A stretch of DNA of 64,000 nt from Streptomyces sannanensis (lineage in GTDB: Bacteria > Actinomycetota > Actinomycetes > Streptomycetales > Streptomycetaceae), in contig NZ_BAAAYL010000001.1 in the NCBI RefSeq assembly GCF_039536205.1, positions 7,068,001-7,132,000 on the forward strand. The letters are read 5' to 3'. Every line of letters begins with the position of its first letter. The first letter of the stretch is position 1. Both the position numbers and the translations under genes were made by a program. Below the pieces are notes generated by a model. That model saw only the letters and a list, made by a program, of their open reading frames with translations, had not been told where the DNA came from and made no database searches. This document shows, one piece after another, positions 18,331 through 31,976 of the stretch.

Positions 18331-18641
18331 CAGGCGAGCGTGCGGTGCATCGTGGAATCGGACACCGGACGGGGAAACAGCCGGCCGTGGTGCAACTGGA
18401 GCTGCTCGGCCTCCAGGATGCTGCGGGCTCCCAGCACGATGGCGATCGCGACCTGCACGAACACCGTCGCCCGGTCCCGCCAGCCCGTCCCGGCCCCGGA
18501 CGGAAACGCCCTGGCCAGCGCGCCGGTCAGACCCGTTCGGTCCGCCAGGCGCCGCAAGAGGACCACCCCCGCATGCCCCACCAGACCCCGACCGTCGGCC
18601 TGCACCCGCAGCCCGTCATCCCAACCTGTACGGCGTCTCAC
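18331..18641 (-). mobile_element. IS1380-type transposase, 5' fragment
   Basis: The minus strand from GTG 18641 encodes RRRTGWDDGLRVQADGRGLV and LADRTGLTGALARAF, the N-terminus of IS1380-family transposases, and stops matching inside gvpF at about 18331. Only about 100 of some 460 residues remain. The catalytic core is missing here, but a related internal fragment lies at 20523-20940. Confidence 0.8.
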
Positions 18642-19363: not shown

Positions 19364-20371
19364 TCAGGTACCCGTGGATACCAGACCGACGGACTTCCGA
19401 ATGATGAGCTCGGTCAGGAGTGAGGCTGGCTCGTTTACAGCTCCGTTGCGAAGGTCGACGAGAGCCTGCATCCCACGGGAGCCCAGTTCCCCGAGCGGTA
19501 GCCGGACGGTGGTGAGGGGTGGCGAGACCAAGGCTGCTGCTGGCAAATCGTTGAAGCCGATGACGGAAAGATCCTCACCAATGATCAGATTCAGGGCGCT
19601 GGCAGCAGCGTAGACACCCATGGCCATGTTGTCATCATCACAGATGACAGCTGTCGGGCGGTTGGAAGCGGAGAGCACCTGGACCATCCGATCCCGGACC
19701 TCAGCCGGCATGAAGGAGCACGAGAGATGATTCGCAATCACGTACGGGTGGCTGAGGGTGCACTGGTCGAACACCTCTGCCCGTCGGGTGAACGTCCAAG
19801 CGAGGCGCTCGGCCCGTAGATGCATAATGCGCTGGTGACCCAGTGCCGTGAGGTGAGCCAGCGCGTTCGCCATCCCGCCGCCGGTGTCCATGGTCACGGT
19901 CGGGGTGCCAGGGGTAGGGGCATCGTCGAGAACTACCAACGGGAGCCCAGCCCGTAGGTTGGAGACGGCCTCGGCTGCCAGCGAGCAGGCGATGACTCCA
20001 TCGAGCGCATGCCGCGGCGCAGGGAACAGGCCGAAGCCGTCCTCCGCGCCGAGGGGAAAGACCACGACACCGAGACCGTTCTGCGCACCGACGCGAGCAG
20101 CGCCGGCGTGGACGGTTGCGAAGACGGGGTTGACCAGTGTCGGGACGACCAGGAGAACCGTACCGGTGCTCCCGAGCCGCAGACTCCGGGCGGACTGGTT
20201 GATCCGGTAACCCAGGTCATCAGCCGTTGTCATCACGCGCCGCGCAGTCTCCTCGCGGATCCTGCCTTGCCATTTGCCGTTGAGGACCAGCGAAACCGTT
20301 GACTGCGACACGTCCGCCACGCGCGCTACATCGGTGGCAGTTATGGTGCGGGCCCGATCGTTTCCATTCAT
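19364..20371 (-). CDS. LacI family transcriptional regulator
   Basis: About 335 residues. The N-terminal LacI helix-turn-helix (TATDVARVADVSQSTVSLVL) is followed by the hinge and a periplasmic-binding-like effector domain with the typical VIGFNDLPAAALVSPPLTTV near the C-terminus. ATG 20371 is chosen because it gives the usual HTH position; a GTG at 20407 is possible. It lies between the integrated element and an IS fragment, close to the left operon of the putative biosynthetic cluster, so it may control that cluster. LacI proteins favour palindromes with a central CG, as found at 25877-25888. Confidence 0.9.
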   Translation of the reverse strand: MNGNDRARTITATDVARVADVSQSTVSLVLNGKWQGRIREETARRVMTTADDLGYRINQSARSLRLGSTGTVLLVVPTLVNPVFATVHAGAARVGAQNGLGVVVFPLGAEDGFGLFPAPRHALDGVIACSLAAEAVSNLRAGLPLVVLDDAPTPGTPTVTMDTGGGMANALAHLTALGHQRIMHLRAERLAWTFTRRAEVFDQCTLSHPYVIANHLSCSFMPAEVRDRMVQVLSASNRPTAVICDDDNMAMGVYAAASALNLIIGEDLSVIGFNDLPAAALVSPPLTTVRLPLGELGSRGMQALVDLRNGAVNEPASLLTELIIRKSVGLVSTGT

Positions 20372-20522
20372 GTCTCTGCCTGTCGCCTGGAATCCCTTGG
20401 CTTTCACTCTCCTTGGTGCGCGGCCATTCTAGTCTTTTGGATTTCATGGCCATCCATCTCGGCGGCGGATAACCTTGGTTGCTGCCGAAATGTGATTACT
20501 TGACACTTCCAGCGAATACGTC

Positions 20523-20940
20523 TGGAAGTTGGCCGGTGCAGCGGCGCCGGACGCCGGCGGGCAGGCGATCGTGGACCTGGACGGCGTCCTCGTTCTGGCC
20601 GCACTCCGAGAAGCAGGACGCCGCCGCGACCTGGAAGAAGACCTTCGGACACCACCCGCTGATGGGGTTCGTCGACCACGGCCGGGGCGGGTCCGGCGAG
20701 CCGGTCGTGGGCCTGCTGCGGCCCGGCAAGGCGGGCTCCAACACCGCCGCTGACCACATCGAGGCCACGAAGCTGGCCCTGGCCCAGATGCCCAAGCGGT
20801 TCCTGCGCGGCCGACAGACGCTGATCCGTGCGGACTCCGGCGGCGGGACCCACGAGTTCGTCGCCTGGCTCGCGAAGCGCGGGCGGTGGCTGTCGTACTC
20901 GCTCGGCATGACCATCACCGATGCCTCGCGGTCGGCGCGG
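20523..20940 (+). mobile_element. IS1380-type transposase, internal fragment, frameshifted
   Basis: Encodes AGGQAIVDLDGVLVLAA in one frame, then HSEKQDAAATWKKTFGHHPL and LLRPGKAGSNTAADHIEATK in another, so there is a frameshift near 20605. These are the DDE-core segments of IS1380-family transposases (first Asp in DLDG, then the RADSGG region with the second Asp). Both ends are missing. It abuts the MFS gene stop at 20947. Confidence 0.8.
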
Positions 20941-20946
20941 TTCGAC

Positions 20947-22260
20947 TCAGTCGGTCGGCGCGGTGTTGGCCGGGGCTGGGAGCTCGGTCGGCCGGGCCAG
21001 CAGTGGTACTGCCAGGCCGGTGAGGGCGAACACGGCACCGAGACCGAGCCAGCCGGTGGCACCCGTGTTCACGACGGCGATGGAGAGCAGTGCCGGCCCC
21101 GCCACGGTCATGCCAGTGGCACCAAGTTGATAGACACTCAGGTAGTACGTGCGCTGCACTTCGGGGGAGAGGCGATATGAGATGCCCCATCCGCCGGCTG
21201 ACTGCCACAGTTCACCTAGCGTGAGTGGTACCGAGGCGAGCAGGAGTAGCAGGCCAGCCGTAAGCGCGCCCATCGACGCGGTAGCCGCTGTCAGGACGCA
21301 GAAGAGTGCCAGCATCAGTCCCGCGGCCCGCTGCTTACGACCGGCGTGCGCCATGTCGTCACCGCCCTTGCTGAGCCGCACCTGGAGCGCCACTGCGAGC
21401 ACGGTGTTCACCACCAGGGCGGCGCCGATCAGGCCGCGCGGCGCGTCGGTGTGAGTGACGATCCAGAGCGGGAACGCCACCGACAGGATCGGAACGTGCA
21501 GGTAGAGGATCCCGTTGGCCATCGAGAGCAGCAGGAACCGCGCGTTCTTGAACGGCAGCAGCTTGGAGCCCGAGCCCCCGGGCTGCTTGGCCTCCCGGGA
21601 CCCCCTGCGTGGGAGCCGAAGCCGCGGCAGCAGTGCCGCAGTTGCCAGGAACGCCGCTGCGTTGGCCAGTACGAAGCCGACGTAGGTGCCGGAGCTGGCC
21701 ATGGTGATGACCACCGTGGCGATCACGGCGGAGAGCGCGTACGCGGCATTCCGAGCCACCGCGATGAGGGCCATGGCCCCGACGGGCGAGCCTTCCTCGG
21801 CCGTCGCGCCGGCCACCGACTGGATGATTGGCCCGACCGCTTGCTCCACCGCGCCGACAAGGCAGGCGACTACCAGGAACATGTGGAAGTCGTCCACGAA
21901 GGGATAGACCAGGAAGGCGGCGGCGCGCCAGAGCTGCAACGCGATCAGGGTAGGGCCGTCGCCGAACCGGTCCGCGAGCCATCCGGTCGGGATGGCACAG
22001 GCAACCCCGAAGAGCCCGGCAATCGAGAGCCCGAGGCCGACCTGTGCGGTGCTGAGCCCGATCACCTGGGTGTAGAAGAGCATCGATCCGGCTAGGAAGA
22101 AGCCCCGGCCGAAGGCGTCCACGAACGCGATGAGGACGAAAACTCTGGCCGCCCGCGACTTCGGGAAGTGTCCTAGTGCTCGCTGGGCGAGCCCCCGCCG
22201 GGCACTTGGCGGTGGGGTGGTGCTCTGCTCGCCATGCGTCGTGCTGGGCCGTAGTCCCAC
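20947..22260 (-). CDS. MFS exporter
   Basis: About 437 residues with some 10-12 hydrophobic segments and a cytoplasmic GWLADRFGDGPTLI loop, the MFS motif A position between helices 2 and 3. The family is that of multidrug or metabolite exporters. I chose the GTG at 22260, with GGGAG upstream; the frame opens further but overlaps the ATP-grasp gene. It is the last gene of the five-gene minus-strand operon and a natural candidate for export of, and self-protection against, the cluster's product. Confidence 0.85.
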   Translation of the reverse strand: MGLRPSTTHGEQSTTPPPSARRGLAQRALGHFPKSRAARVFVLIAFVDAFGRGFFLAGSMLFYTQVIGLSTAQVGLGLSIAGLFGVACAIPTGWLADRFGDGPTLIALQLWRAAAFLVYPFVDDFHMFLVVACLVGAVEQAVGPIIQSVAGATAEEGSPVGAMALIAVARNAAYALSAVIATVVITMASSGTYVGFVLANAAAFLATAALLPRLRLPRRGSREAKQPGGSGSKLLPFKNARFLLLSMANGILYLHVPILSVAFPLWIVTHTDAPRGLIGAALVVNTVLAVALQVRLSKGGDDMAHAGRKQRAAGLMLALFCVLTAATASMGALTAGLLLLLASVPLTLGELWQSAGGWGISYRLSPEVQRTYYLSVYQLGATGMTVAGPALLSIAVVNTGATGWLGLGAVFALTGLAVPLLARPTELPAPANTAPTD

Positions 22261-22315
22261 GTGTTCGTCTTCTCCCTGCTCCGGGTCTCGTCGGGCGGCT
22301 GTGCTGACGGCTGGG

Positions 22316-23623
22316 CTAGCTGACGGTGATGCGGACGGCTTCACGGACCGTTGAGTCGAACCGCTCGAGCTGACCCGGGTCGGGGCTGTCGAACAGAGCG
22401 GTGACGGCCCGGCCGAAGGAGTCAGCCAGCGGCCCCAGTTCGGCACCGCGCGCCTTGAGCACGAGGACCTTCCGGAGGCCGGGCGGCGCGTCGGGACTGG
22501 CCGGCTCGACCGCCGGCCACAGGCCGTGGTCCACAACCCAGAAGGGTTCCACCCCGGCGAGGCCATCGACGGCTATGTCTTCCAGCTTCCCCGGAGTGTG
22601 GTCAAAGTAGATCTGCCGGGCCCAGCGGCTGGGTTCCGGGTGGTGCACGGGCAGGCCGAGTGCCGCGTCGACCACTGAAGACTCGATCGAGGCACCGGTG
22701 GCCAGCTGGTAAAGGTGCAGTATCCCGTCGCCCGGCGGGCGCGCCGCGATCTCCATCAGCGCGATCTGGCCGTCCGGGAGAACGCGGTACTCGCCGTGGG
22801 CCATGCCAGTGCCGAAGTTGAGGCGGGCCAGCACTGCTGCCTGGGCCTCCTTCAGCCGGTCGGCCTCGTCCTTGGTGAGGTTGCAGGCCGGCAGGGTGTG
22901 GCCCATCTCGACGAAGAAGTCGCTCTCGTCTTCGTTAGTCAACTTCTGGGTGACCGCGGAGAAGACCGGATAGCCGCCTGCGACGATGGTCTCTACACTG
23001 AACTCACGGCCGGACAGCCGCTGCTCCAGGAGGACTGGCGAAGCGGACGCCAGATCCTCAAGGTGCGACTCGAGGGCTTCCCGGTCCCTGAGCACCCGAA
23101 CCCCGATGCTGCAGTAGAGGTCGAGTGGTTTGGAGATGAGCGGATACCGGTCGGCGAGGGCCGTCAGGACCGTCTCACGAGAGCTACTCGAGAGCACCGA
23201 CACGGGGCTCCACTCACCTAGGTAGAGCCGCTGGAGATGCTTGTTCCGGCATACTCGCGCGGCCCTGAGCCCGACTCCGGGGAGCCCGAGGAGGTCGGCG
23301 GTCTGCCCGGCGGGCTCGACGAAGGTCTCGGACGAGGCGAAGACGCCCCTGATGTCATAGTCCGCGGCCCAGGACGTGACTTGGCCGAGGATCCCTGCGA
23401 GATCCTCGGCCGGGAGGAACTCGAGCTGCTCCACTGCCTCGAAGGGGTGTCCCGGCTTACCGACGTAGGAGACCGCGACCTGTTCCAACGGCCACTGGGG
23501 CAGCCCGGTGATGACCAGGCTCCGCAGACCGCGCGCGGCGATGGCCTCCAGATAGGCACCGGCCTTGGGGAGGTCCGTGAAGAGGATGAAGGCGGGCGGC
23601 CGGGCCGCGCCGGAGGGAGGCAT
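22316..23623 (-). CDS. ATP-grasp ligase
   Basis: 435 residues with the carbamoyl-phosphate-synthase/BtrJ-type ATP-grasp layout. There is an N-terminal preATP-grasp domain, an ATP-binding region with PLISKPLDLYCSIGVRVL, and metal-binding HGEYRVLPDGQIALMEIAAR (Glu and Arg of the ATP-grasp core). Such enzymes join a carboxylate to an amine or thiol through an acyl-phosphate. GGAG precedes ATG 23623. Within the operon it would make the amide or peptide bond of the product (inference). Confidence 0.88.
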   Translation of the reverse strand: MPPSGAARPPAFILFTDLPKAGAYLEAIAARGLRSLVITGLPQWPLEQVAVSYVGKPGHPFEAVEQLEFLPAEDLAGILGQVTSWAADYDIRGVFASSETFVEPAGQTADLLGLPGVGLRAARVCRNKHLQRLYLGEWSPVSVLSSSSRETVLTALADRYPLISKPLDLYCSIGVRVLRDREALESHLEDLASASPVLLEQRLSGREFSVETIVAGGYPVFSAVTQKLTNEDESDFFVEMGHTLPACNLTKDEADRLKEAQAAVLARLNFGTGMAHGEYRVLPDGQIALMEIAARPPGDGILHLYQLATGASIESSVVDAALGLPVHHPEPSRWARQIYFDHTPGKLEDIAVDGLAGVEPFWVVDHGLWPAVEPASPDAPPGLRKVLVLKARGAELGPLADSFGRAVTALFDSPDPGQLERFDSTVREAVRITVS

Positions 23624-23658
23624 GGTGATCTCCATAGGAGGAATGTGCGGACTCGGGA

Positions 23659-24228
23659 TCACGCCGGTTGGTGCATGGCTGTCGTGGGTGCGAAGACGGA
23701 GACCCGGTCGGCGATGTCCCCGGTCGACCGGCGAACTGGTGGCTTCGCACCGTCGGGAGTGCCGACGTCGAGTGAGCCAAGCAGCCGCTCCGTCGGCGCC
23801 AGGCCCAGCAGTTCGCGGACGGCCCGGCTCTCGCACAGTCGGCCTGTGCGCCAGATCCTGCCGTAACCGCGGGCATGCAGAAGCAGCATCAGGCCGTAAG
23901 CCATGAAACTTGCGGCGGCCAACTGCTTCCACTCCGGGATCTTGTGACCTGGAGTGGAAGCGAAGACCAGCGCCGCCATCAACGGCGCCCGCAGCACCTT
24001 TCGGACGATCTGCTCCTGCTGTTCCGGCGGTACATCGGTCGCCAGGCGGGCACCAAGCGTCTCCCGGTCCGTGCCGCGCAGTGGGACCCACCGCCACGGC
24101 CGCAGGCTCCCGTGGTCTGGAGCGGCAGCCGCGCCGCCTAACAGATAGGCGAACTCCGCGTCATTGGGCGCCAGTTCGATGAGTGTCTGCACGCTGCGGC
24201 GAGTCAGGACCACGGTCATGGCGTCCAA
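23659..24228 (-). CDS. Nitroreductase family flavoprotein
   Basis: 189 residues. N-terminal TRRSVQTLIELAPND and AAPDHGSLRPWRWVPLRG match FMN-binding nitroreductase-fold proteins (the APDHGSLRPWR pattern is close to YdjA-type), and ASFMAYGLMLLLHARGYG follows. Uses FMN and NAD(P)H; substrate unknown. The TTG at 24228 has AAGGAG seven bases upstream, better than the internal ATG at 24219. Middle gene of the left operon. Confidence 0.85.
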   Translation of the reverse strand: MDAMTVVLTRRSVQTLIELAPNDAEFAYLLGGAAAAPDHGSLRPWRWVPLRGTDRETLGARLATDVPPEQQEQIVRKVLRAPLMAALVFASTPGHKIPEWKQLAAASFMAYGLMLLLHARGYGRIWRTGRLCESRAVRELLGLAPTERLLGSLDVGTPDGAKPPVRRSTGDIADRVSVFAPTTAMHQPA

Positions 24229-24281
24229 TGCAATGCTCCTTGGTAGTGACCGTCTACCGGGGTGAGGTGGGCTGTCGCGGG

Positions 24282-25196
24282 TCAGCCGCGCGCGGCGGCG
24301 ATGCGGGCCAGGAAGGCGGTGGTGATCGCCATGACCGCGTGACCGGTCATGCCGCCGACGTCGTGGCTCGGTGCGAACTCGACGATGTCATAGGCGAGTA
24401 CGGGCTCCGGGAGCTGCTCCAGCAGGCCGAGAAGCTCGCCTGTGCCGATGCCGCCGGCCACCGGGGTTCCGGTGCCGGGCACGCAAGAGGCGTCCAACAC
24501 GTCGATATCGACCGTGACGTAGAACTGGTCGACGCGCTCGGAGATCTCCTCGATGTGCCGCCGGTACGCTTGCCGGGCGCCAGCTGGGTCATCCATGAAG
24601 ACCGCCGCCGGCACCTCATTGATGCCGGTCTTGCGAATGAACTCGACCTCGCCGGCGTCGTAGGCGCGGGTGCCCACAAGTAGCACGTTCTCCGGCTCGA
24701 CGGCGCCCTCTTCGACGATCCGCCGCAGCGGGGAGCCGTGCGAGATCGTGGAGCCCTGGTAGCCATCGAGCACGTCCGGATGGGCGTCGAACCAGACCAG
24801 CCCCAATTGCCGGCCCTGTGCGGCGCCGCAGACGATCGGGTAGGTGATCGAGTGGTCACCGCCGAAGGTCAGCACGGGCGCGGTGACCTCGCGGAACACC
24901 GACCGGTAGACCTCTCCGACATAGTCGATCGACCGGGTGAGGTCGAAGCGCCAGGTCTCGACATCCCCGAGGTCGAGCAGCCGCAGGCCGGAGGCGTCGT
25001 GGCCGCGCCGGTCGGTCGTCTTCAGCCGACTCGACAGCTCGCGGACCCGACCGGGGCCCAGTGACGCACCCCCCGCACCGCCCGCTCCGCCCTCGAAGGG
25101 CACCCCGATGACGACCACGTCTGGCGAGTCCGCCGAGCCGCGAGGAACGGCCAGGCCGTTCCAGACCCGAGCACCCGGCTCCGTCAGGTCCTGCAC
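24282..25196 (-). CDS. Ureohydrolase (agmatinase/arginase family)
   Basis: 304 residues. The binuclear manganese motifs are complete: GGDHS, then WFDAHPDVLDG, then VTVDIDVLDASCVPGTGTP. The family hydrolyses guanidino compounds to urea plus an amine (arginine, agmatine, guanidinobutyrate, formiminoglutamate). Which one is used here cannot be read. In the operon it may shape a guanidine-bearing intermediate. It follows the isochorismatase-like gene by 34 bases. Confidence 0.9.
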   Translation of the reverse strand: MQDLTEPGARVWNGLAVPRGSADSPDVVVIGVPFEGGAGGAGGASLGPGRVRELSSRLKTTDRRGHDASGLRLLDLGDVETWRFDLTRSIDYVGEVYRSVFREVTAPVLTFGGDHSITYPIVCGAAQGRQLGLVWFDAHPDVLDGYQGSTISHGSPLRRIVEEGAVEPENVLLVGTRAYDAGEVEFIRKTGINEVPAAVFMDDPAGARQAYRRHIEEISERVDQFYVTVDIDVLDASCVPGTGTPVAGGIGTGELLGLLEQLPEPVLAYDIVEFAPSHDVGGMTGHAVMAITTAFLARIAAARG

Positions 25197-25230
25197 TGAA
25201 GCTTCTCCCTCCCTGCTGGTCCGCGCCCGG

Positions 25231-25815
25231 TTACGCCAGCGCCTGGACGGAGAAGTCGAAGCCGGCCTTGTCCCGGATGCGGGCGACCACGTCCGTCATC
25301 GGAACTACCACTGCGCAGTACGAGGCGAGCCACTCGAGCGCCCTGACCCGGTCCTCGTCACGCGTCGAGACGACACCGTCCGAGGGGACGATCACGTTGT
25401 AGCCGCGGAAATGTGCGTCGGCCGCGGTGGTCTGGATGCACACCTGGGCCTGCATCCCCGTGATGATCACGGTGTCAATTCCGTGCTCCTCAAGGTACTC
25501 GTGAAGCTTCGTCTCAAAGAAGCCGCTGTCCTTCTTCTTCTCCATGATGACGTCCGACGGATGCACGAACTCCGGTAGCAGCTCCGCCCCGGGCGTGCCC
25601 CGCAGCACCGGGATGCGGCCATCGTGGAGCTCGATCTTCTTGTCGCCCTCGTCATAGATCAGCTGCAGGTGGATGACTGGGACGTTCAGCTCCCGCATCT
25701 CCGAGAGGAACCGCGTGAAGTCCGGAGTCATCCGCTCCACGTTGGCTTTGCGCTGCTCGTTCTTGTCGACCAGATCGCGTTGCAGATCGTTGGTCAGGAT
25801 CGCGTATCGGGACAT
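25231..25815 (-). CDS. Isochorismatase-like cysteine hydrolase
   Basis: 194 residues. The expected Asp-Lys-Cys triad is visible: Asp in LTNDLQRDLVD, Lys in MEKKKDSGFFE, and Cys in ITGMQAQVCIQTTAADA. The family includes nicotinamidase, N-carbamoylsarcosine amidohydrolase, ureidoacrylate amidohydrolase and true isochorismatase. No siderophore genes are nearby, so an amidase or carbamoyl hydrolase role is more likely. ATG 25815 is the first gene of the left operon, facing the inverted-repeat promoter region. Confidence 0.88.
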   Translation of the reverse strand: MSRYAILTNDLQRDLVDKNEQRKANVERMTPDFTRFLSEMRELNVPVIHLQLIYDEGDKKIELHDGRIPVLRGTPGAELLPEFVHPSDVIMEKKKDSGFFETKLHEYLEEHGIDTVIITGMQAQVCIQTTAADAHFRGYNVIVPSDGVVSTRDEDRVRALEWLASYCAVVVPMTDVVARIRDKAGFDFSVQALA

Positions 25816-25864
25816 GTCACTTCCGTTGTGAGGATGAGGACGCCAAGAGCGGGCACCAGACAAC

Positions 25865-25978
25865 CCAGGAGGCTAGTCATACGTATGAGGGTCTGCAATG
25901 GGTCGCATCGTGAACATGGCTAAATCCAGCCCAGGTTGACTGCTTGTCGGATCTTCATGCGTATGACTAGCCTCCTGG
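25865..25978. promoter_or_regulatory. Divergent operator pair, 24-base inverted repeat
   Basis: The arms at 25865-25888 and 25955-25978 are inverted copies differing at one position, separated by 66 bases. The inner part of the left arm is itself a perfect palindrome, TCATACGTATGA (25877-25888); the right arm has TCATGCGTATGA. They sit between the divergent starts at 25815 and 26075. Each operon probably has one copy of the same promoter/operator, read in opposite directions. The central CG fits a LacI-type regulator. Confidence 0.75.
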
Positions 25979-26074
25979 ACGTCGGGGCCCGAGCTGGCTG
26001 GCCAATCCGGCTCCCACGTCGGCCTGTTGACGCCCTGATCCTTCCTTCGTTCCAGCGAGAAACAGAGGCACGCC

Positions 26075-26791
26075 ATGACTGAGCGTCTGTCGGTAGAGAT
26101 CGACGAGCGGAACGACGCGTTCACCAGCGCGGTGAAGAGCAAGCTCCTGAACCACCTGCCCACCGCCAGCACGGAGTCGCTGGACTGGCTGATCATGGAG
26201 CACTACCAGTTCTCCTTCGCGAACTGTGGCCTGCTGCAGGCAGCAGTGGAGTGCACCAAGACGCTCGCCGAGCCGGGCGTTTCGGTGGAGCTGCAGCGGA
26301 ACGTGGACGAGGAGGACGGCCACGCCCCGATGTACAAGCAGGGCATGCTGAACGTCGGCACCGATATGGACAAGCGGGTGGAGTTCCCCGCCACCACCAA
26401 GTTCCTGGCCGAGGTCAAGGCGCTGTGTGCCCCGAATCCGTCGCGGGCGCTGGGCGCGCTGTACGCGACCGAGACCGCTGCGATCTTCGAGCACGAGGTC
26501 TTCTTCGAGATCTGCCGCGAGATCTGTGACCGTCGAGGCTTCACTTACGAGGGCAGCCTGATCAAGCGCTTCCACGACATCCACCTGGAGGACGGGGTGG
26601 AGCAGGGCCACAAGGATGGCCTGGCTGCGTTCGTGGACCTCGACCAGACTGGTGTCGAGTTCCCCGAGGGCGAGGCGATCGATCGAGGGGAGGTCCGGCA
26701 GGGTGGCCTGGACGCGATCGAGGTCATGCAGGTCTGGTGGGACGCCCTCCTCGACAAAGCCCTTGCCGAGCCCGCAGGCACCGCTGTCTGA
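26075..26791 (+). CDS. Heme-oxygenase-like diiron protein (DUF3865/HDO type)
   Basis: 238 residues, all-helical. Candidate iron ligands are Glu42-His43 in MEHYQFSFAN, Glu78/Glu79 and His82 in VDEEDGHAP, Glu132 and Glu138-His139 in TETAAIFEHEVFF, and His166/His169 in FHDIHLEDGVEQGHKDG. Related diiron enzymes (UndA, CADD, SznF and fluopsin-pathway proteins) use oxygen for C-C cleavage or N-oxygenation. First gene of the right operon, directly followed by hypE, hypF and an unknown protein. The substrate is not predictable. Confidence 0.85.
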   Translation: MTERLSVEIDERNDAFTSAVKSKLLNHLPTASTESLDWLIMEHYQFSFANCGLLQAAVECTKTLAEPGVSVELQRNVDEEDGHAPMYKQGMLNVGTDMDKRVEFPATTKFLAEVKALCAPNPSRALGALYATETAAIFEHEVFFEICREICDRRGFTYEGSLIKRFHDIHLEDGVEQGHKDGLAAFVDLDQTGVEFPEGEAIDRGEVRQGGLDAIEVMQVWWDALLDKALAEPAGTAV

Positions 26792-26827
26792 ACAGACCAC
26801 AACGCCGCGAGTAGGAGAGGTTGGCAC

Positions 26828-27838
26828 GTGACAGACAAGGTCGTCCTTGACCATGGAGCCGGTGGCGGGATGAGCCAAGAGCTCATCTCGGGGACCATCG
26901 CCGGGATACTTGGCGACACCTACATCGGTGAGATGGAGGACAGCGCACTGCTGGAGCTCCCCAGCATGCGAATAGCAATGACGACCGACTCGTTCGTGGT
27001 TGACCCGATCTTCTTCGGCAACGGCGACATCGGCAAGATCGCTATAGCCGGCACGGTCAACGATCTCGCGGTGAGTGGTGCGCGGCCGCTTTACCTGACC
27101 TTGGCTGTCGTACTGGAGGAAGGCTTCGAGCTCGAAGACTTCCGCCGAATCCTACGCTCCGTCAGGGATGCTGCCAGGGTGGCAGATGTGAAGATCGTGG
27201 CCGGCGACACCAAGGTCGTCCGGCGAGGAGAGGCAGACGGAATCTTCCTCAACACCACTGGTGTGGGAATGCTCGAGCGCCCGTTCACGCTGTCCAGTCG
27301 GACACTCCAGACCGGTGACCAGGTCATCGTCACGGGCTTCCTCGGCGACCACAGCATCCACATCCTCTCCATGCGAGAGGGACTGGGATTCGAGCGGCGC
27401 GTTCACAGCGACTGTGCGGTGCTCAGCCATGTCGTCGCGGATGTCCTCGACACCTGCGGTGACGGTGTGCGCTGCATCCGGGATATCACCCGCGGCGGAC
27501 TCGGCACGGTCGTCAACGAGTTCGCCCAGGCGTCGGCCATTACCATCGAACTGGACGCATCGGCCCTGCCGATCCGGCCGGAGACGGCCATGGCGGCGGA
27601 CATGCTCGGTGTCGACGTGATGTACCTCGCCAACGAGGGAAACCTCTGCCTGGTTGTCGCGGCCGAGCAGGCAGAGGCGGCCCTCAAGGCCCTGCACGCC
27701 CACCCGGAGTGCGCGCAGGCCGCGGTGGTCGGGCAGGTCGTCACCGCCGAGGCAGGCACCGTCCGGATGGTCGACGTAGACGGCCGTGTCTCCACCGTTG
27801 AACTGTTGTACGGAGCCCAGTTGCCGAGGCTCTGCTGA
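26828..27838 (+). CDS. hypE: HypE, thiocyanate-forming carbamoyl dehydratase
   Basis: 336 residues of the AIR-synthase-like HypE family. The N-terminal VLDHGAGGGMSQELI and GTVNDLAVSGARPLYLT are classical. The protein ends exactly in PRLC, giving the C-terminal cysteine that HypF carbamoylates and HypE dehydrates with ATP to a protein thiocyanate (known chemistry). In hydrogenase maturation HypCD takes the cyanide to iron; none of hypA-D nor hydrogenase genes are in the window. The stop overlaps the hypF start by one base. Confidence 0.95.
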   Translation: MTDKVVLDHGAGGGMSQELISGTIAGILGDTYIGEMEDSALLELPSMRIAMTTDSFVVDPIFFGNGDIGKIAIAGTVNDLAVSGARPLYLTLAVVLEEGFELEDFRRILRSVRDAARVADVKIVAGDTKVVRRGEADGIFLNTTGVGMLERPFTLSSRTLQTGDQVIVTGFLGDHSIHILSMREGLGFERRVHSDCAVLSHVVADVLDTCGDGVRCIRDITRGGLGTVVNEFAQASAITIELDASALPIRPETAMAADMLGVDVMYLANEGNLCLVVAAEQAEAALKALHAHPECAQAAVVGQVVTAEAGTVRMVDVDGRVSTVELLYGAQLPRLC

Positions 27839-30147
27839 TGGCGGCCGAGGCGGTACGCAGGACCCTTGAGGTGGCCGGCTTCGTGCAGGGCGTGGGCTTC
27901 CGGCCCTATGTGTACCGCCTGGCCACCCAGCACATGCTGGGTGGCTGGGTGCGCAACGACACCCGGGGCGTCACGATCTGCATCGAAGGACCGCGTGAAG
28001 AGGCCGACATATTCGGCGAGGAGCTGTTGAAGCGGCTTCCCGACCTGGCCCGCATCGATTCCTGCACCATGGTCGCCGAGGAGCCGGTGCGCGACTGGAC
28101 CTCCTCGTTCACCATTCGACACAGCGAGTCGGACGGAGGGGCCGGAGCTCTGGTCACCCCGGACAGCTACGTGTGCGCCGACTGCGCGAAGGAGCTCTTC
28201 GACCCGGACGACCGGCGCCACCGCTACCCCCTACTCAACTGCACCAACTGCGGACCGCGATACAGCATCATCCGTGGCCTCCCTTACGACCGACCGAAGA
28301 CCACCATGGCGGACTTCGCCATGTGTCCGGAGTGCCAGGGTGAGTACGAGTCGCCCGCGGACCGGCGGTTCCACGCCCAGCCCAACGCATGCCGGTCGTG
28401 CGGCCCGCAGGTACGGCTGTTGCTGCCGGACGGCTCCAAGGTCGGCACGTCCGATCCAGTGTCCGTGGCCGCCGAGATGCTTCGAGACGGGCGCATCCTG
28501 GCGGTCAAGGCACTCGGCGGCTACCAGCTGATGGCTGATCCTTGCAGCCGTTCCGCAGTGACCGAGCTGCGGGCGCGCAAGGAGCGCAGCAGCAAACCCT
28601 TCGCACTGCTCGCGCGTGACAGTGCGACAGTCGCCGAGTACGCCGTGATCGACGATCAGGAGCGGCGGCTCCTGGAGTCACCCGGACGCCCGATCGTGCT
28701 GCTTCAGGCCCGGCCGGACAGCGGACTCTCACCTGACGTGGCACCAGGCTCCACCACGCTGGGGTTCATGCTGCCGGCCACGCCGTTGCAACACCTCCTC
28801 CTCCATGCCGTCGGCCCGGTACTGATCGCGACCAGCGCCAACGCACCGGACGAGCCGATGGCCTGCACCGAGGACGAGGCGCTGCACAGTCTGCAGAGCC
28901 TTGCCGATGCCTTCCTCGTGCACGACCGCGAGATCCACACGCGCGTGGACGATTCGATCGCCCGCGTCGTGCACAGTACGGTCGACCCGAAGGTCGCCTT
29001 CGTGCGACGCGCCCGTGGCTACGTCCCTGACCCTGTGCCGACTCCCTTCCCGGTGCCGCCCGTCCTGGCACTCGGCGCGGAACTCAAGAACACCGTGTGC
29101 CTCGGCAGCGGCGACAACCTCTACGTCAGCCAGCACATCGGTGACCTCAAGACCCTGGGCAACCAGCAGTTCTTCGCCGATACGATCGCGCACCTGCGCG
29201 CCATGTTTGGTATGACGCCGAAGTACGTCGCCCATGACCTGCATCCCGACTTCCACAGCACCCGCTACGCCGCCTCCTGCCAGGACGTGCAGCTGGTGGC
29301 CGTCCAGCACCACCATGCCCACATGGCCTCCTGCATGGCGGACAACGGACTGGACCGGCCTGTGATAGGAGTCGTATTCGACGGCACCGGCTACGGCACC
29401 GACGGCACGATCTGGGGAGGTGAGTTCCTGATCGGCGACTACCGCGGCTTCGAGCGGAAGGCGCACCTGGCGCGCTTCCGGCTGCCGGGTGGCGACAAGG
29501 CCGTGCGAGAGCCCGCCCGGGTCGCCATCGGCCTCCTGGCGCAGCATTTCGGCGCCGACGCCGCGGCCCTGCCGCTCGACCTCCTTCAGCGGCGGGATCC
29601 CTTCGAGGTCGGTGTCCTCATGAAGATGGCCGCACGAGGCATCAACGCGCCGGAGACCTCCAGCATGGGTCGGTTGTTCGACGCCTACTCCGCCCTGCTC
29701 GGCGTGTGCGAGCAGGTGGGCTACGAGGGGCAGGCGGCCATCGAGCTCGAACAGCTCATCGCCTGGGATCACACCCCGGCGGAGCCCTGGCCGTTGCGGC
29801 TGCAGGATGAGGACGGCCGCCTCGTCATCGACCACAGGCCATGGCTGGAGGCGCTCCTGTCGGATGTCTCCGACCGCGGCAGCTCTGCGGCGCAGGTGAG
29901 CCGGACGTTTCACGAGAGCGTGGTTCGTGCGGTGGTGGAGATCTGCCTGCGCCTGTCGCTCACCAGCGGGCTGAAGGACGTCGTCCTCAGCGGCGGTGTG
30001 TTCCTGAACCAGCACCTCCTGGTCAGGGCCGAACAGGAGCTGACCCAGGCCGGACTCAGCGTGCACACCCACAGCCGTATCCCCACCAATGACGGCGGGC
30101 TCTCCGCAGGACAGGCTATGGTCGCCGCCGCCCGGGCCAACTCATGA
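27838..30147 (+). CDS. hypF: HypF, carbamoyltransferase
   Basis: 769 residues, full HypF length. Domains in order: acylphosphatase (GFVQGVGFRPYVYRLA, with Asn in VRNDTRG); two zinc fingers (CADC with CTNC, then CPEC with CRSC); YrdC-like (VKALGGYQLMAD); and the Kae1-like domain with the HHHAH metal site and FDGTGYGTDGTIWGGEF. It turns carbamoyl phosphate and ATP into carbamoyl-AMP and loads the HypE cysteine. All key residues seem present. The four-base overlap with the next gene makes translation coupled. Confidence 0.95.
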   Translation: MAAEAVRRTLEVAGFVQGVGFRPYVYRLATQHMLGGWVRNDTRGVTICIEGPREEADIFGEELLKRLPDLARIDSCTMVAEEPVRDWTSSFTIRHSESDGGAGALVTPDSYVCADCAKELFDPDDRRHRYPLLNCTNCGPRYSIIRGLPYDRPKTTMADFAMCPECQGEYESPADRRFHAQPNACRSCGPQVRLLLPDGSKVGTSDPVSVAAEMLRDGRILAVKALGGYQLMADPCSRSAVTELRARKERSSKPFALLARDSATVAEYAVIDDQERRLLESPGRPIVLLQARPDSGLSPDVAPGSTTLGFMLPATPLQHLLLHAVGPVLIATSANAPDEPMACTEDEALHSLQSLADAFLVHDREIHTRVDDSIARVVHSTVDPKVAFVRRARGYVPDPVPTPFPVPPVLALGAELKNTVCLGSGDNLYVSQHIGDLKTLGNQQFFADTIAHLRAMFGMTPKYVAHDLHPDFHSTRYAASCQDVQLVAVQHHHAHMASCMADNGLDRPVIGVVFDGTGYGTDGTIWGGEFLIGDYRGFERKAHLARFRLPGGDKAVREPARVAIGLLAQHFGADAAALPLDLLQRRDPFEVGVLMKMAARGINAPETSSMGRLFDAYSALLGVCEQVGYEGQAAIELEQLIAWDHTPAEPWPLRLQDEDGRLVIDHRPWLEALLSDVSDRGSSAAQVSRTFHESVVRAVVEICLRLSLTSGLKDVVLSGGVFLNQHLLVRAEQELTQAGLSVHTHSRIPTNDGGLSAGQAMVAAARANS

Positions 30148-31616
30148 CGAAGGCGGACATGGACGAAAAGCGGGTCAGGGGGAGCCTCGACGCCATCGTC
30201 GGGCAGATCCGGCAGTACGTGCCCAGCATGGCACCGTATTTTGAGATCGACAGGCCCCTGGGTGAGTACGCGGCAGGACTTCAGCCGGCCCGCGTCGGCC
30301 CGGTGCACGCCGACCGGCAGGAAGCTGTCGCGCGCGCCGTCCGGCAGGTGCTACGGCAGGCGTTCGGGCCAGCCGCAGCGGAGGTCTCCGTGGACGCGAG
30401 TGACGTGCGTGCGATCAATATCGTGGATCACCACCAGCTGCTGAACCACCCGCTGCTGTTGGGGACCAACATCATCGCCAACGCGGACAGGCTGGTGGGA
30501 GGCGGCGGTCGGCGGCCGATCGTTACGTTTTCGTGCAGCAACGTGCCACCGAGTAACCATTACATGCGCAACGGCTTCCAGTTTCGCGGGGAGGCGATCC
30601 CCTACTTCAAAGCGAAGGAACACCGTGATGCGATGTACTACACGAGCGTCCGGTCCTTCGACTTCGTTGAACGGCTGCGCGCACTCAAGCGCTGGGAACG
30701 CTTCAAGTCGGACGACCAAGCCTTCCTGATCGAGTACCAGGGCCTCCTCAACGGCCTCGACTACTCGCACACTAACCGCCACCGCGACCAGCTCGCTGTC
30801 GCGCTGCGGCGTACCTGGCCGATGCTGTTCTCACAGGAACTCCGTCGAGACGTTCCGGAGTTGCTCTACGCCAACTCCGAGGATGTGGCGCGAGAGTGCC
30901 TCGTTGAGCTGCTCGCAGGGGAGAACTTCCTCTCCGCTGCGCTCTTTGACGCGGAATTCCGGCAGCACGTCCTGGATGCCTTCCGAGGCATCGTGGTTGC
31001 CTGGGACGAGGCCGCCGGCAAGGGCACTCACTTCTTCTGGCGCAAGTACCCCGGCCGACCCGAACTGCTCCGCCTGTTCGTCGACGGATCGGACCTGGTA
31101 CCGGCGGACCCGCGCTTCAAGGACCTCAAGGTGCCCCTGGAGCCTGCCGCCATCCGTGACCATCTGGAGCGCGAGGAGATCATCCCGTCTGTCGCGCTGT
31201 GCATGAGCGTCCTGCTGTACGCGGGGGTCAAACCCCTGGTGGGGCCGGGTTCGCTCGTCTACACCACCCAGCTGAAGGAAGGCTGGACCGCGCTCCTTGA
31301 GCGGCACGGGTACGCCTCCGAGGCGAGCCTCGTCGCGCAGGTCGACACAGCGGGTCTGATCGCGGGAACGCCGATGTTCTTCGGGCGTTCGGGAGACGCG
31401 GTGCGGACGCTCTACGCGGCTGATGTCTTCAGCATGGGCGGCATGTCTGAGAGCTACATGAAGACCGCGCTGAGCGCTCCACTCAAAGACCTGCTGTCCG
31501 TTGGCTCGAGTGGTGTGTACGACTTGTTCTCTAACTCGTACATTCCGAAGGAGAAGCAACTGACTGAACGAATTGGCTTCGACGAGGCAGCAACAATCAT
31601 CCATGGATGGGTGTGA
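30144..31616 (+). CDS. Unknown protein, 490 residues, HypEF-linked
   Basis: I do not recognise this family. There is no signal peptide or membrane segment. The striking part is VDHHQLLNHPLLLGTNIIAN at about 94-113, followed by PIVTFSCSNVPPSNHYMRNG with a Ser-Cys-Ser and the GEAIPYFKAKEHRDAMYY stretch. These His/Asp/Cys residues could bind a metal or form an active site. It overlaps hypF by four bases, so it belongs to the right operon and is the best candidate for using the HypE-bound cyano group (inference). The 3' end is less GC-rich than surrounding genes, which suggests transfer. Confidence 0.7.
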   Translation: MTKADMDEKRVRGSLDAIVGQIRQYVPSMAPYFEIDRPLGEYAAGLQPARVGPVHADRQEAVARAVRQVLRQAFGPAAAEVSVDASDVRAINIVDHHQLLNHPLLLGTNIIANADRLVGGGGRRPIVTFSCSNVPPSNHYMRNGFQFRGEAIPYFKAKEHRDAMYYTSVRSFDFVERLRALKRWERFKSDDQAFLIEYQGLLNGLDYSHTNRHRDQLAVALRRTWPMLFSQELRRDVPELLYANSEDVARECLVELLAGENFLSAALFDAEFRQHVLDAFRGIVVAWDEAAGKGTHFFWRKYPGRPELLRLFVDGSDLVPADPRFKDLKVPLEPAAIRDHLEREEIIPSVALCMSVLLYAGVKPLVGPGSLVYTTQLKEGWTALLERHGYASEASLVAQVDTAGLIAGTPMFFGRSGDAVRTLYAADVFSMGGMSESYMKTALSAPLKDLLSVGSSGVYDLFSNSYIPKEKQLTERIGFDEAATIIHGWV

Positions 31617-31976
31617 CTGCGCGGTGACGACCTCGTCCGAACTGTCGGTGTCGGGCTAACGAGGGTGAGCACGATTGTGCTCTCGCTGAGATTGAGACCG
31701 TCAGCAGGTCTGCGGGACGGCAAGTCCCGCACTCCGGGCGCGGAGCTGAAGCCGCCCATGGCGCGGCCCCCCGCGCTGCGGCCCGACCTCGCCCGCGAGC
31801 GGGGTATGGGCGCCACGAGCATGGCGCGGTGGCCCCACAGCTACAGCATCCCGCTCCGCGCCCGCGGCGACGGAGCAAGCCACGAGACTGCCCTTCGTAC
31901 GGTAGGCGAGGCTGCCCGCACTCCCCGCTGCGAATCGTCATGACCTCCCCGTTGACGGTGCCATCCACAGCATGAC
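31617..31976. other. Intergenic, small hairpin, possible remnant
   Basis: A GAGCAC-GATT-GTGCTC hairpin at 31667-31682 may end the right operon. A 92-codon frame at 31665-31943 (GKSRTPGAELKPP) is open but unrecognised. Confidence 0.3.

Follow-up and report, generated by a model that had tools for sequence, protein, structure and literature searches.

A HypE/HypF gene cluster separate from the hydrogenase operon in Streptomyces sannanensis: a candidate source of cyano or carbamoyl groups for a small molecule

Here we describe a divergent gene cluster in a 64,000-nucleotide stretch of the Streptomyces sannanensis genome (referred to as the window; C1:277353-341352, minus strand, on the 7,409,353-base main contig C1 of a 7.83-Mb genome), in which hypE and hypF are found together with genes for a cysteine hydrolase of the isochorismatase type and several enzymes without a link to hydrogenase. 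We somewhat favour the interpretation that this is a regulated small-molecule cluster built around a non-hydrogenase HypE/HypF pair, in which a cyano group would be passed via the cysteine hydrolase to a small molecule. Four lines of evidence support it: the genome has a separate hydrogenase operon with its own HypE and HypF, the window HypE belongs to a separate clade, the genes for hydrolase, HypE and HypF (the trio) keep constant company, and other trios lie within nonribosomal peptide synthetase (NRPS)-type clusters and short exporter operons. To our knowledge, the chemistry of HypE and HypF has been described for hydrogenase maturation only.

Results

HypE and HypF of the window and of the hydrogenase operon

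Both window proteins are full-length members of their families (HypE, TIGR02124, 411.8 bits vs. a cut-off of 251.6; HypF, TIGR00143, 753.4 bits vs. 466.1). The original prediction, made from the letters of the window, had HypE retain its C-terminal PRLC cysteine and HypF retain all its domains. Both statements hold, as HypE ends in PRLC and the Pfam domains of HypF follow in the order acylphosphatase, two zf-HYPF, YrdC, HypF_C and HypF_C_2, the last two being both Kae1-like parts. The residues corresponding to K134, E272 and C338 of T. kodakarensis HypE (K129, E270 and C336 in the window protein) are kept in all 28 rows compared; the roles of the lysine and the glutamate were reportedly described by Tominaga in 2013. 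HypF motifs were intact in all six rows viewed, out of 23.

HypA, HypC and HypD (HypB was not searched for) occur once each genome-wide, all at C1:6.549-6.554 Mb, in agreement with the predicted absence of the other hyp genes from the window. The one strong match to the [NiFe]-hydrogenase large subunit lies with them, within C1:6.549-6.558 Mb; elsewhere the large-subunit model gave two short matches at 29 bits and one below the cut-off. The earlier description of the cluster as lacking a hydrogenase is thus right for the cluster, since the genome-wide search placed neither HypC/HypD nor hydrogenase genes in the window hypE/hypF operon, and wrong for the genome, which carries a [NiFe]-hydrogenase. 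A hydrogenase operon in want of hypEF, a possibility raised with the prediction, did not materialize: the operon encodes a HypF and a HypE of its own, which share 45% and 42% identity, respectively, with the window proteins. Compared with [NiFe]-hydrogenase maturation, therefore, the window has the same two proteins, with all HypF domains and the Lys, Glu and Cys of HypE, but its HypE falls in a separate clade, ends in PRLC and not in the published motif PR(I/V)C (PMC4506123) and has a constant cysteine hydrolase partner, while its operon is devoid of HypC/HypD and hydrogenase.

A HypE clade with a constant cysteine hydrolase partner

A tblastn search with the window HypE against 72,556 plasmid records matched 143 records, the best 60 of which, ranked by coverage × identity, were examined. 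Ten contained a full-length match at 54.0-87.9% identity, the next in rank reaching 46.6%, and these ten came from S. clavuligerus, two Citrobacter, one Salmonella, three Paraburkholderia, one Rhizobium and two other Streptomyces. When the same plasmids were searched with the cysteine hydrolase, 742 records were matched and the ten best (43-93% identity) were the same ten as for HypE, followed by a match at 32% (best 40 of 742). This coincidence concerns full-length HypE: a partial HypE of Streptomyces NBC_01591, which matches 66% of the query at 54.9% identity, is surrounded by transposases, and the annotation of the 20.7 kb there shows no hydrolase; a Methylocystis HypE (48% identity) aligns over just 80%; and the HypE-like gene of Streptomyces NBC_01276, annotated as 'AIR synthase-related', stands in a different context.

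Neighbourhoods were examined in nine of the ten plasmids, the second Citrobacter being left out, and the comparison comprised 15 loci: eight plasmids, the Streptomyces genome G087 and six window-type clusters (S. clavuligerus included). The cysteine hydrolase was present in 15/15. It lies directly upstream of hypE in nine (the eight plasmids and G087; by tblastn for NBC_01445 and G087), and in the six window-type clusters it is divergent from hypE, with the DUF3865 gene alone between them across the divergent promoter. Among 394 class-wide genomes the hydrolase was found (E 1e-30) in two, including our own, both with the trio. Hydrolase relatives at 53-63% identity were not placed in any gene context. 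A phylum match in G595 (51 residues with three stops) was not counted as a gene.

For phylogenetic comparison we used 13 hydrogenase HypE rows with HypD beside each (eight annotated plasmids and five genomes, with HypD partial in G349). The HypE tree splits the 15 trio or cluster rows from these 13 at a 100/100 branch, and the C-termini read PRLC in 15/15 clade members and PRIC in 13/13 hydrogenase rows. The HypF tree shows a split from eight hydrogenase rows at 100/99, the three most remote of which are long-branched. The HypE clade is seen in Actinomycetota and Pseudomonadota; within the latter the Citrobacter operon had no match in 20,395 E. coli records at megablast sensitivity. Streptomyces G087, which is rated 100% complete (about 90 contigs), contains the trio and gave no HypC or HypD match, making it unlikely that its HypE and HypF serve a hydrogenase of the usual kind. 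G349, a carrier of the cluster, gave no HypC match and a partial HypD match.

Gene contexts of the trio outside window-type clusters

The trio is embedded in varied surroundings. The gene order is LysR regulator, hydrolase, hypE, hypF, HAD phosphatase and MFS gene in Citrobacter and Salmonella, and ABC transporter genes, hydrolase, hypE, DMT exporter and hypF in Rhizobium. In Streptomyces NBC_01361 (from the annotation) and G087 (by eye) the trio lies inside NRPS-type clusters, and the best NCBIfam model of a pyridoxal phosphate (PLP) enzyme in these two clusters is fluorothreonine transaldolase, at 190 and 221 bits vs. a cut-off of 650. These two loci are L077 and L085, and the NRPS-type cluster at L077 additionally has a 2-oxoglutarate-Fe dioxygenase and a glutamine-amidotransferase-like gene. 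In seven trio loci (L073-L077, L081 and L085), the ten window proteins, used as tblastn queries (E 1e-3 or 1e-4), gave matches for the hydrolase, HypE and HypF only; the DUF3865 and 490-residue proteins were not found there.

On the symbiosis plasmids of Paraburkholderia (L075, L079 and L080), an ectB-type transaminase and a GNAT gene precede the trio, and in L079 and L080 hypF is followed by what is left of a second transaminase. In nodules formed by a nifA mutant of P. phymatum, hypE (Bphy_7271), hypF (Bphy_7272), ectB and the GNAT gene were reduced by log2 values of 5.17, 7.47, 7.58 and 8.06, respectively, and lower 2,4-diaminobutanoate was tied to ectB by the authors (according to parts of PMC8305402, in which the hydrolase does not figure). 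An ectoine-type acetyltransferase was considered for the gene beside the Paraburkholderia trio and rejected, as the two GNAT proteins scanned had no NCBIfam match.

Organization of the Streptomyces cluster

The cluster spans positions 19364-31616 of the window and comprises ten genes. All genes named in the original prediction were recovered at their places in two divergent operons, the left one consisting of the major facilitator superfamily (MFS), ATP-grasp, nitroreductase, ureohydrolase and cysteine hydrolase genes and the right one of the DUF3865 gene, hypE, hypF and the 490-residue protein gene. The bounds then given, 20947..31616, hold for those genes and are extended by a LacI gene and an IS1380 piece. 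The features are as follows.

19364..20407, minus strand: LacI-family regulator, probable pathway regulator (PF00356 and PF13377; homologue near the cluster in 5/6 copies)
about 20512..20925: IS1380-type transposase remnant, not a working part (megablast to annotated IS1380 transposases of S. longwoodensis plasmids)
20947..22260, minus strand: MFS exporter (PF07690; 6/6 copies)
22316..23635, minus strand: ATP-grasp ligase, optional gene (PF13535; PDB 3vot, BacD; 3/6 copies)
23659..24228, minus strand: nitroreductase-family protein, optional gene (PF00881; 2/6 copies)
24282..25196, minus strand: ureohydrolase (PF00491; PDB 3nip and 1gq6; motifs GGDHS, DAHPD and DIDVLD; 6/6 copies)
25231..25815, minus strand: isochorismatase-type cysteine hydrolase (PF00857; D26, K109 and C142 invariant)
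25877..25888: palindrome TCATACGTATGA resembling an operator, in the divergent promoter
25955..25966: second such palindrome, TCATGCGTATGA, at a distance of 78 bp
26075..26791, plus strand: DUF3865/CADD-like protein of the haem-oxygenase fold, probable non-haem diiron enzyme (PF12981; PDB 3b5o and 7twa by profile)
26828..27838, plus strand: HypE of the non-hydrogenase PRLC clade (TIGR02124; tree; C-terminus; K129, E270 and C336)
27838..30147, plus strand: HypF carbamoyltransferase with all domains (TIGR00143; Pfam domains; motifs; tree)
30144..31616, plus strand: 490-residue protein of a family without a Pfam or NCBIfam model (distant relatives in Patescibacteria)

The genes are tightly packed, hypE and hypF overlapping by 1 base and hypF and the 490-residue protein gene by 4, with intergenic gaps of at most 55 bases except for one of 539, which holds the transposase remnant between the LacI and MFS genes, and one of 259, the operator region. 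The open reading frame of the MFS gene opens at 22566, and its likely start near 22260 was set from the S. clavuligerus homologue. A block of the S. clavuligerus plasmid pF1D35B (NZ_CP065243.1) matches window positions 19376-31617 (82% of a 13.5-kb query at 87% identity), and because this block covers the LacI gene we count the latter in the cluster.

A second copy of the whole cluster (L012) is located at C1:7085000-7104999, at the mirrored distance from the other end of the main contig with an offset of one base; the cluster is therefore apparently part of a terminal inverted repeat. The repeat may extend to 477 kb, where a mirrored pair is found. That pair is a 183-residue frame (C1:477413-477682 and C1:6931671-6931940) whose match to the [NiFe] large-subunit model, at 29 bits (cut-off 25.8), falls in the C-terminal part of the latter.

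Six copies of the cluster were compared (the window, S. clavuligerus, G282, G294, G349 and G045, the second copy of our own genome being left out). The hydrolase, DUF3865 protein, HypE, HypF and 490-residue protein are, like the MFS protein and the ureohydrolase, present in every copy, and the co-conservation of the flanking genes with hypEF, on which the original prediction hinged, is thereby borne out. The copy without a LacI gene is that of G282, where none was found in the 19.5-kb stretch. In the S. clavuligerus plasmid record the 490-residue protein gene is split over two frames; a separate S. clavuligerus homologue of 490 residues exists. Within the genus, 5/392 genomes, including our own, contain the 490-residue protein. 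Contigs of at least 6 kb with the hydrolase (n = 29) carried a DUF3865 relative in 17/29 and a 490-residue protein relative in 7/29, a rough lower bound on which we do not rely. A role in anti-phage defence was rejected, as five proteins gave no match in PADLOC.

Twin palindromes between the operons

The 259-base gap between the operons contains the near-identical palindromes TCATACGTATGA and TCATGCGTATGA. The pattern TCATNCGNATGA, which was derived from the window and afterwards tried on the other copies, occurs twice in the 64 kb, both times in this gap, vs. 0.01 expected and with none of 100 shuffles reaching two. G294, G349 and G045 have both palindromes in the same gap, 98-99 bases apart, and in S. 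clavuligerus they are 78 apart, as in the window, with one mismatch in the second site; the two spacings differ by about 21 bases, or two DNA turns. Twin palindromes thus accompany the LacI gene in 5/6 copies and are absent from the gap of G282, the sole copy without a LacI gene in its fetched stretch. Stray single matches were seen downstream of the MFS gene in G349 and in one Patescibacteria locus. Cumulatively, these patterns suggest that the LacI protein probably represses both operons via the twin palindromes. In one stretch (L025), two further operator-like palindromes, at 18554-18565 and 18580-18591, closely precede another LacI-family gene in the neighbourhood of the cluster, which suggests that this gene may be autoregulated.

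Other proteins of the cluster

D26, K109 and C142 of the cysteine hydrolase (numbered from the TTG at 25863) are kept in 15/15 loci; in isochorismatase-type hydrolases Asp-Lys-Cys acts as a catalytic triad. Its best NCBIfam model, biuret amidohydrolase, scores far below the cut-off, and its nearest models and structures also include an N-carbamoylsarcosine-amidase-related protein and ureidoacrylate amidohydrolase. The ureohydrolase (PF00491, 218.9 bits) has its metal motifs and is of the guanidinopropionase, proclavaminate amidinohydrolase or agmatinase kind, the nearest structures being 3-guanidinopropionase and proclavaminate amidinohydrolase. The nearest solved relatives of the ATP-grasp protein are L-amino acid (dipeptide) ligases, and its occurrence in three of the six copies suggests a product resembling an amino acid, to which certain strains would ligate a second one.

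CADD and BesC are haem-oxygenase-like diiron enzymes of amino-acid tailoring. The DUF3865 profile reaches CADD-like 3b5o (46.6 bits) and 4-chloro-allylglycine synthase 7twa (25.4 bits), a remote relationship at weak scores. Thirteen Glu and His residues (E42, H43, E72, E79, E80, H83, E133, E139, H140, H167, H170, E176 and H179) are invariant in 24/24 chosen homologues, consistent with a probable non-haem diiron enzyme. Relatives at 49-55% identity were seen in Legionella, another gammaproteobacterium and a deltaproteobacterium (P0165, P0171, P0172 and P0142).

The 490-residue protein had no Pfam or NCBIfam match at E 0.01 and no PDB match at E 1; its profile gave one chance-level PDB match (E 0.13), and 43 members of its family scanned against Pfam at E 1 gave scattered weak matches only (best E 0.011). 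The family numbers at least 62 proteins including our own, and these comparisons found no described relative among Pfam, NCBIfam and PDB entries; as a key to the function of the cluster the protein was dropped, there being no informative match. In one Patescibacteria phylum, 20/286 genomes have a match, 17 of the 20 under 200 bits. The relatives there are about 490-520 residues long (L014-L017 and L095-L101) and, by eye, had no constant neighbour in seven stretches, with an ATP-grasp ligase-like gene beside the relative in L016 and phosphoenolpyruvate-utiliser-like genes nearby in L015 and L017. A metagenomic protein of 527 residues (P0059) joins the C-terminal Pfam domain of HypF to 47% of the 490-residue protein at 67% identity and is an apparent fusion of the two or a frame joint.

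Discussion

In hydrogenase maturation, the cyano group made by HypF and HypE is taken by HypC/HypD. By homology and from its intact residues, the window HypF would convert carbamoyl phosphate and ATP to carbamoyl-adenylate and carbamoylate C336 at the C-terminus of HypE, and HypE would use ATP to dehydrate the carbamoyl group on this cysteine to a thiocyanate. The cysteine hydrolase would then stand in HypCD's place, accept or move the group with C142 and hand it to a small-molecule nucleophile. We propose the hydrolase for this position because it alone among the partners is found at each of the 15 loci and because its active site includes a cysteine; the relay itself, leading to a cyanamide, nitrile or thiocyanate, is the weakest step of the scheme and is offered tentatively. 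In the Streptomyces version, the diiron-type protein, the ureohydrolase and the 490-residue protein would modify the carrier, the ATP-grasp ligase may couple it to an amino acid, the MFS protein would export it, and the LacI protein would repress both operons through the twin palindromes.

Several observations weigh against this scheme. No product, substrate or transfer has been observed, and the chemistry, including the choice between cyano and carbamoyl, is inferred from homology. The hydrolase family normally cleaves amides and N-carbamoyl groups, and the enzyme may act on a carbamoyl product and not carry cyanide. No acceptor other than the hydrolase is common to the trio loci. The nine trio rows of the HypF tree do not form one clade, Rhizobium standing apart. 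In 4/4 Patescibacteria genomes with a relative of the 490-residue protein (genomes of unstated completeness) no HypE was found, and the basic activity of this protein is therefore independent of HypE. On all three Paraburkholderia plasmids the trio has hydrogenase genes on the other strand, no more than about 9 kb away, and those of P. phymatum are likewise NifA-dependent (in the same parts of PMC8305402). Finally, five of the six cluster- or trio-carrying genomes examined have a hydrogenase HypD (partial in G349), use of the window-type pair by a hydrogenase being excluded by sequence arguments only.

The last point recalls the simplest alternative, namely that the cluster holds spare maturation genes for the genome's own hydrogenase. 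That the genome has a [NiFe]-hydrogenase and that four other cluster carriers have HypD (again partial in G349) would suit it, but HypE and HypF are already encoded in the hydrogenase operon, the window pair belongs to a separate clade with operon partners unrelated to hydrogenase, and G087 has the trio without a HypC/HypD match; we rejected this idea, which is largely refuted and scarcely credible. A ribosomally synthesized and post-translationally modified peptide (RiPP) cluster has been proposed for a hypE/hypF/ATP-grasp cluster by the decRiPPter screen of 2020, which lists it among 42 candidate RiPP families (in the section of PMC7794033 on these candidates). We regard this as highly improbable here, as the short gaps between the genes, the two longer ones apart, leave little room for a precursor gene (no systematic search for short frames was made) and the ATP-grasp gene is missing from 3/6 copies; the identity of the decRiPPter cluster with that of the window is, moreover, not established.

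It is also rather improbable that HypE provides a cyanide ligand to the iron of the DUF3865 protein, the 490-residue protein or another metalloprotein or metallophore, i.e. to a metal site outside hydrogenase. We know of no use of HypE other than the delivery of cyanide to iron, and the window cluster includes a probable iron protein with invariant Glu and His; however, the DUF3865 and 490-residue proteins went unmatched by tblastn at the seven trio loci searched, several trios have exporter or NRPS-type genes around them, and the cluster has no HypD-like scaffold. Less remote, though still unlikely in our judgement, is a pathway with carbamoyl in place of cyano, in which HypF and HypE would carbamoylate an amine, a thiol or an oxygen, with trimming or recycling of the carbamoyl group left to the isochorismatase-type enzyme. 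The nearest relatives of the hydrolase and its fully conserved D-K-C speak for such a pathway, as does the ureohydrolase of the window cluster, but an ATP-using dehydratase would be superfluous for plain carbamoylation, and the Lys, Glu and Cys of HypE are kept in 15/15. O-carbamoyltransferases such as TobZ, GdmN and Asm21 carbamoylate without HypE; they share with HypF the YrdC-like and Kae1-like chemistry via carbamoyl-adenylate, whereas their Kae1-like part precedes the YrdC-like one, an order reversed in HypF, which adds an acylphosphatase, zinc fingers and the HypE partner (as far as described in part of PMC6022934).

Returning to transfer of a cyano group via the hydrolase, a broader version of this idea is conceivable, although we hold it with reserve: hydrolase, HypE and HypF may form a portable module for cyanyl donation that plasmids and biosynthetic clusters have carried from phylum to phylum, in which a hydrolase fold has turned cyanyl transferase and the products are cyanamides, nitriles or cyclic guanidines. 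The group would pass from the HypE thiocyanate to the hydrolase cysteine and on to N, C or S of a small molecule, such as a diamino acid (in Paraburkholderia) or an NRPS building block (in Streptomyces).

That a cyano or carbamoyl group is diverted from HypE to a small molecule, as put forward in the original prediction, remains the best reading and is strengthened by the trio found across phyla, with product, substrate and transfer step inferred only. Its claim that no pathway with this gene set had been described stands as far as pathways go; a hypE/hypF/ATP-grasp cluster was, however, already in print. The decRiPPter paper reports one such cluster without other hyp genes, for which its authors suggest a novel function, and in this it resembles ours; the relevant section gives it one paragraph and no pathway, and contains neither the cysteine hydrolase nor the clade nor other phyla (PMC7794033, this section). 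A literature search in which subscription journals were mostly out of reach found nothing on the trio or its product among the matches listed.

If our interpretation is true, a distinct HypE clade with its own constant partner has turned the cyanide-making machinery to small molecules, and nitrile, cyanamide or carbamoyl groups would have a new source; this claim can be tested. The PRLC terminus together with a neighbouring cysteine hydrolase provides a sequence handle for finding such clusters in any genome, and the existence of the clade implies that some annotations as 'hydrogenase formation protein HypE' or 'carbamoyltransferase HypF' hide another job. Were the portable module to exist, the C-N triple bond of a natural product would come from carbamoyl phosphate. 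This branch of HypE and HypF points to an unexplored route by which bacteria could attach cyano or carbamoyl groups to small molecules.

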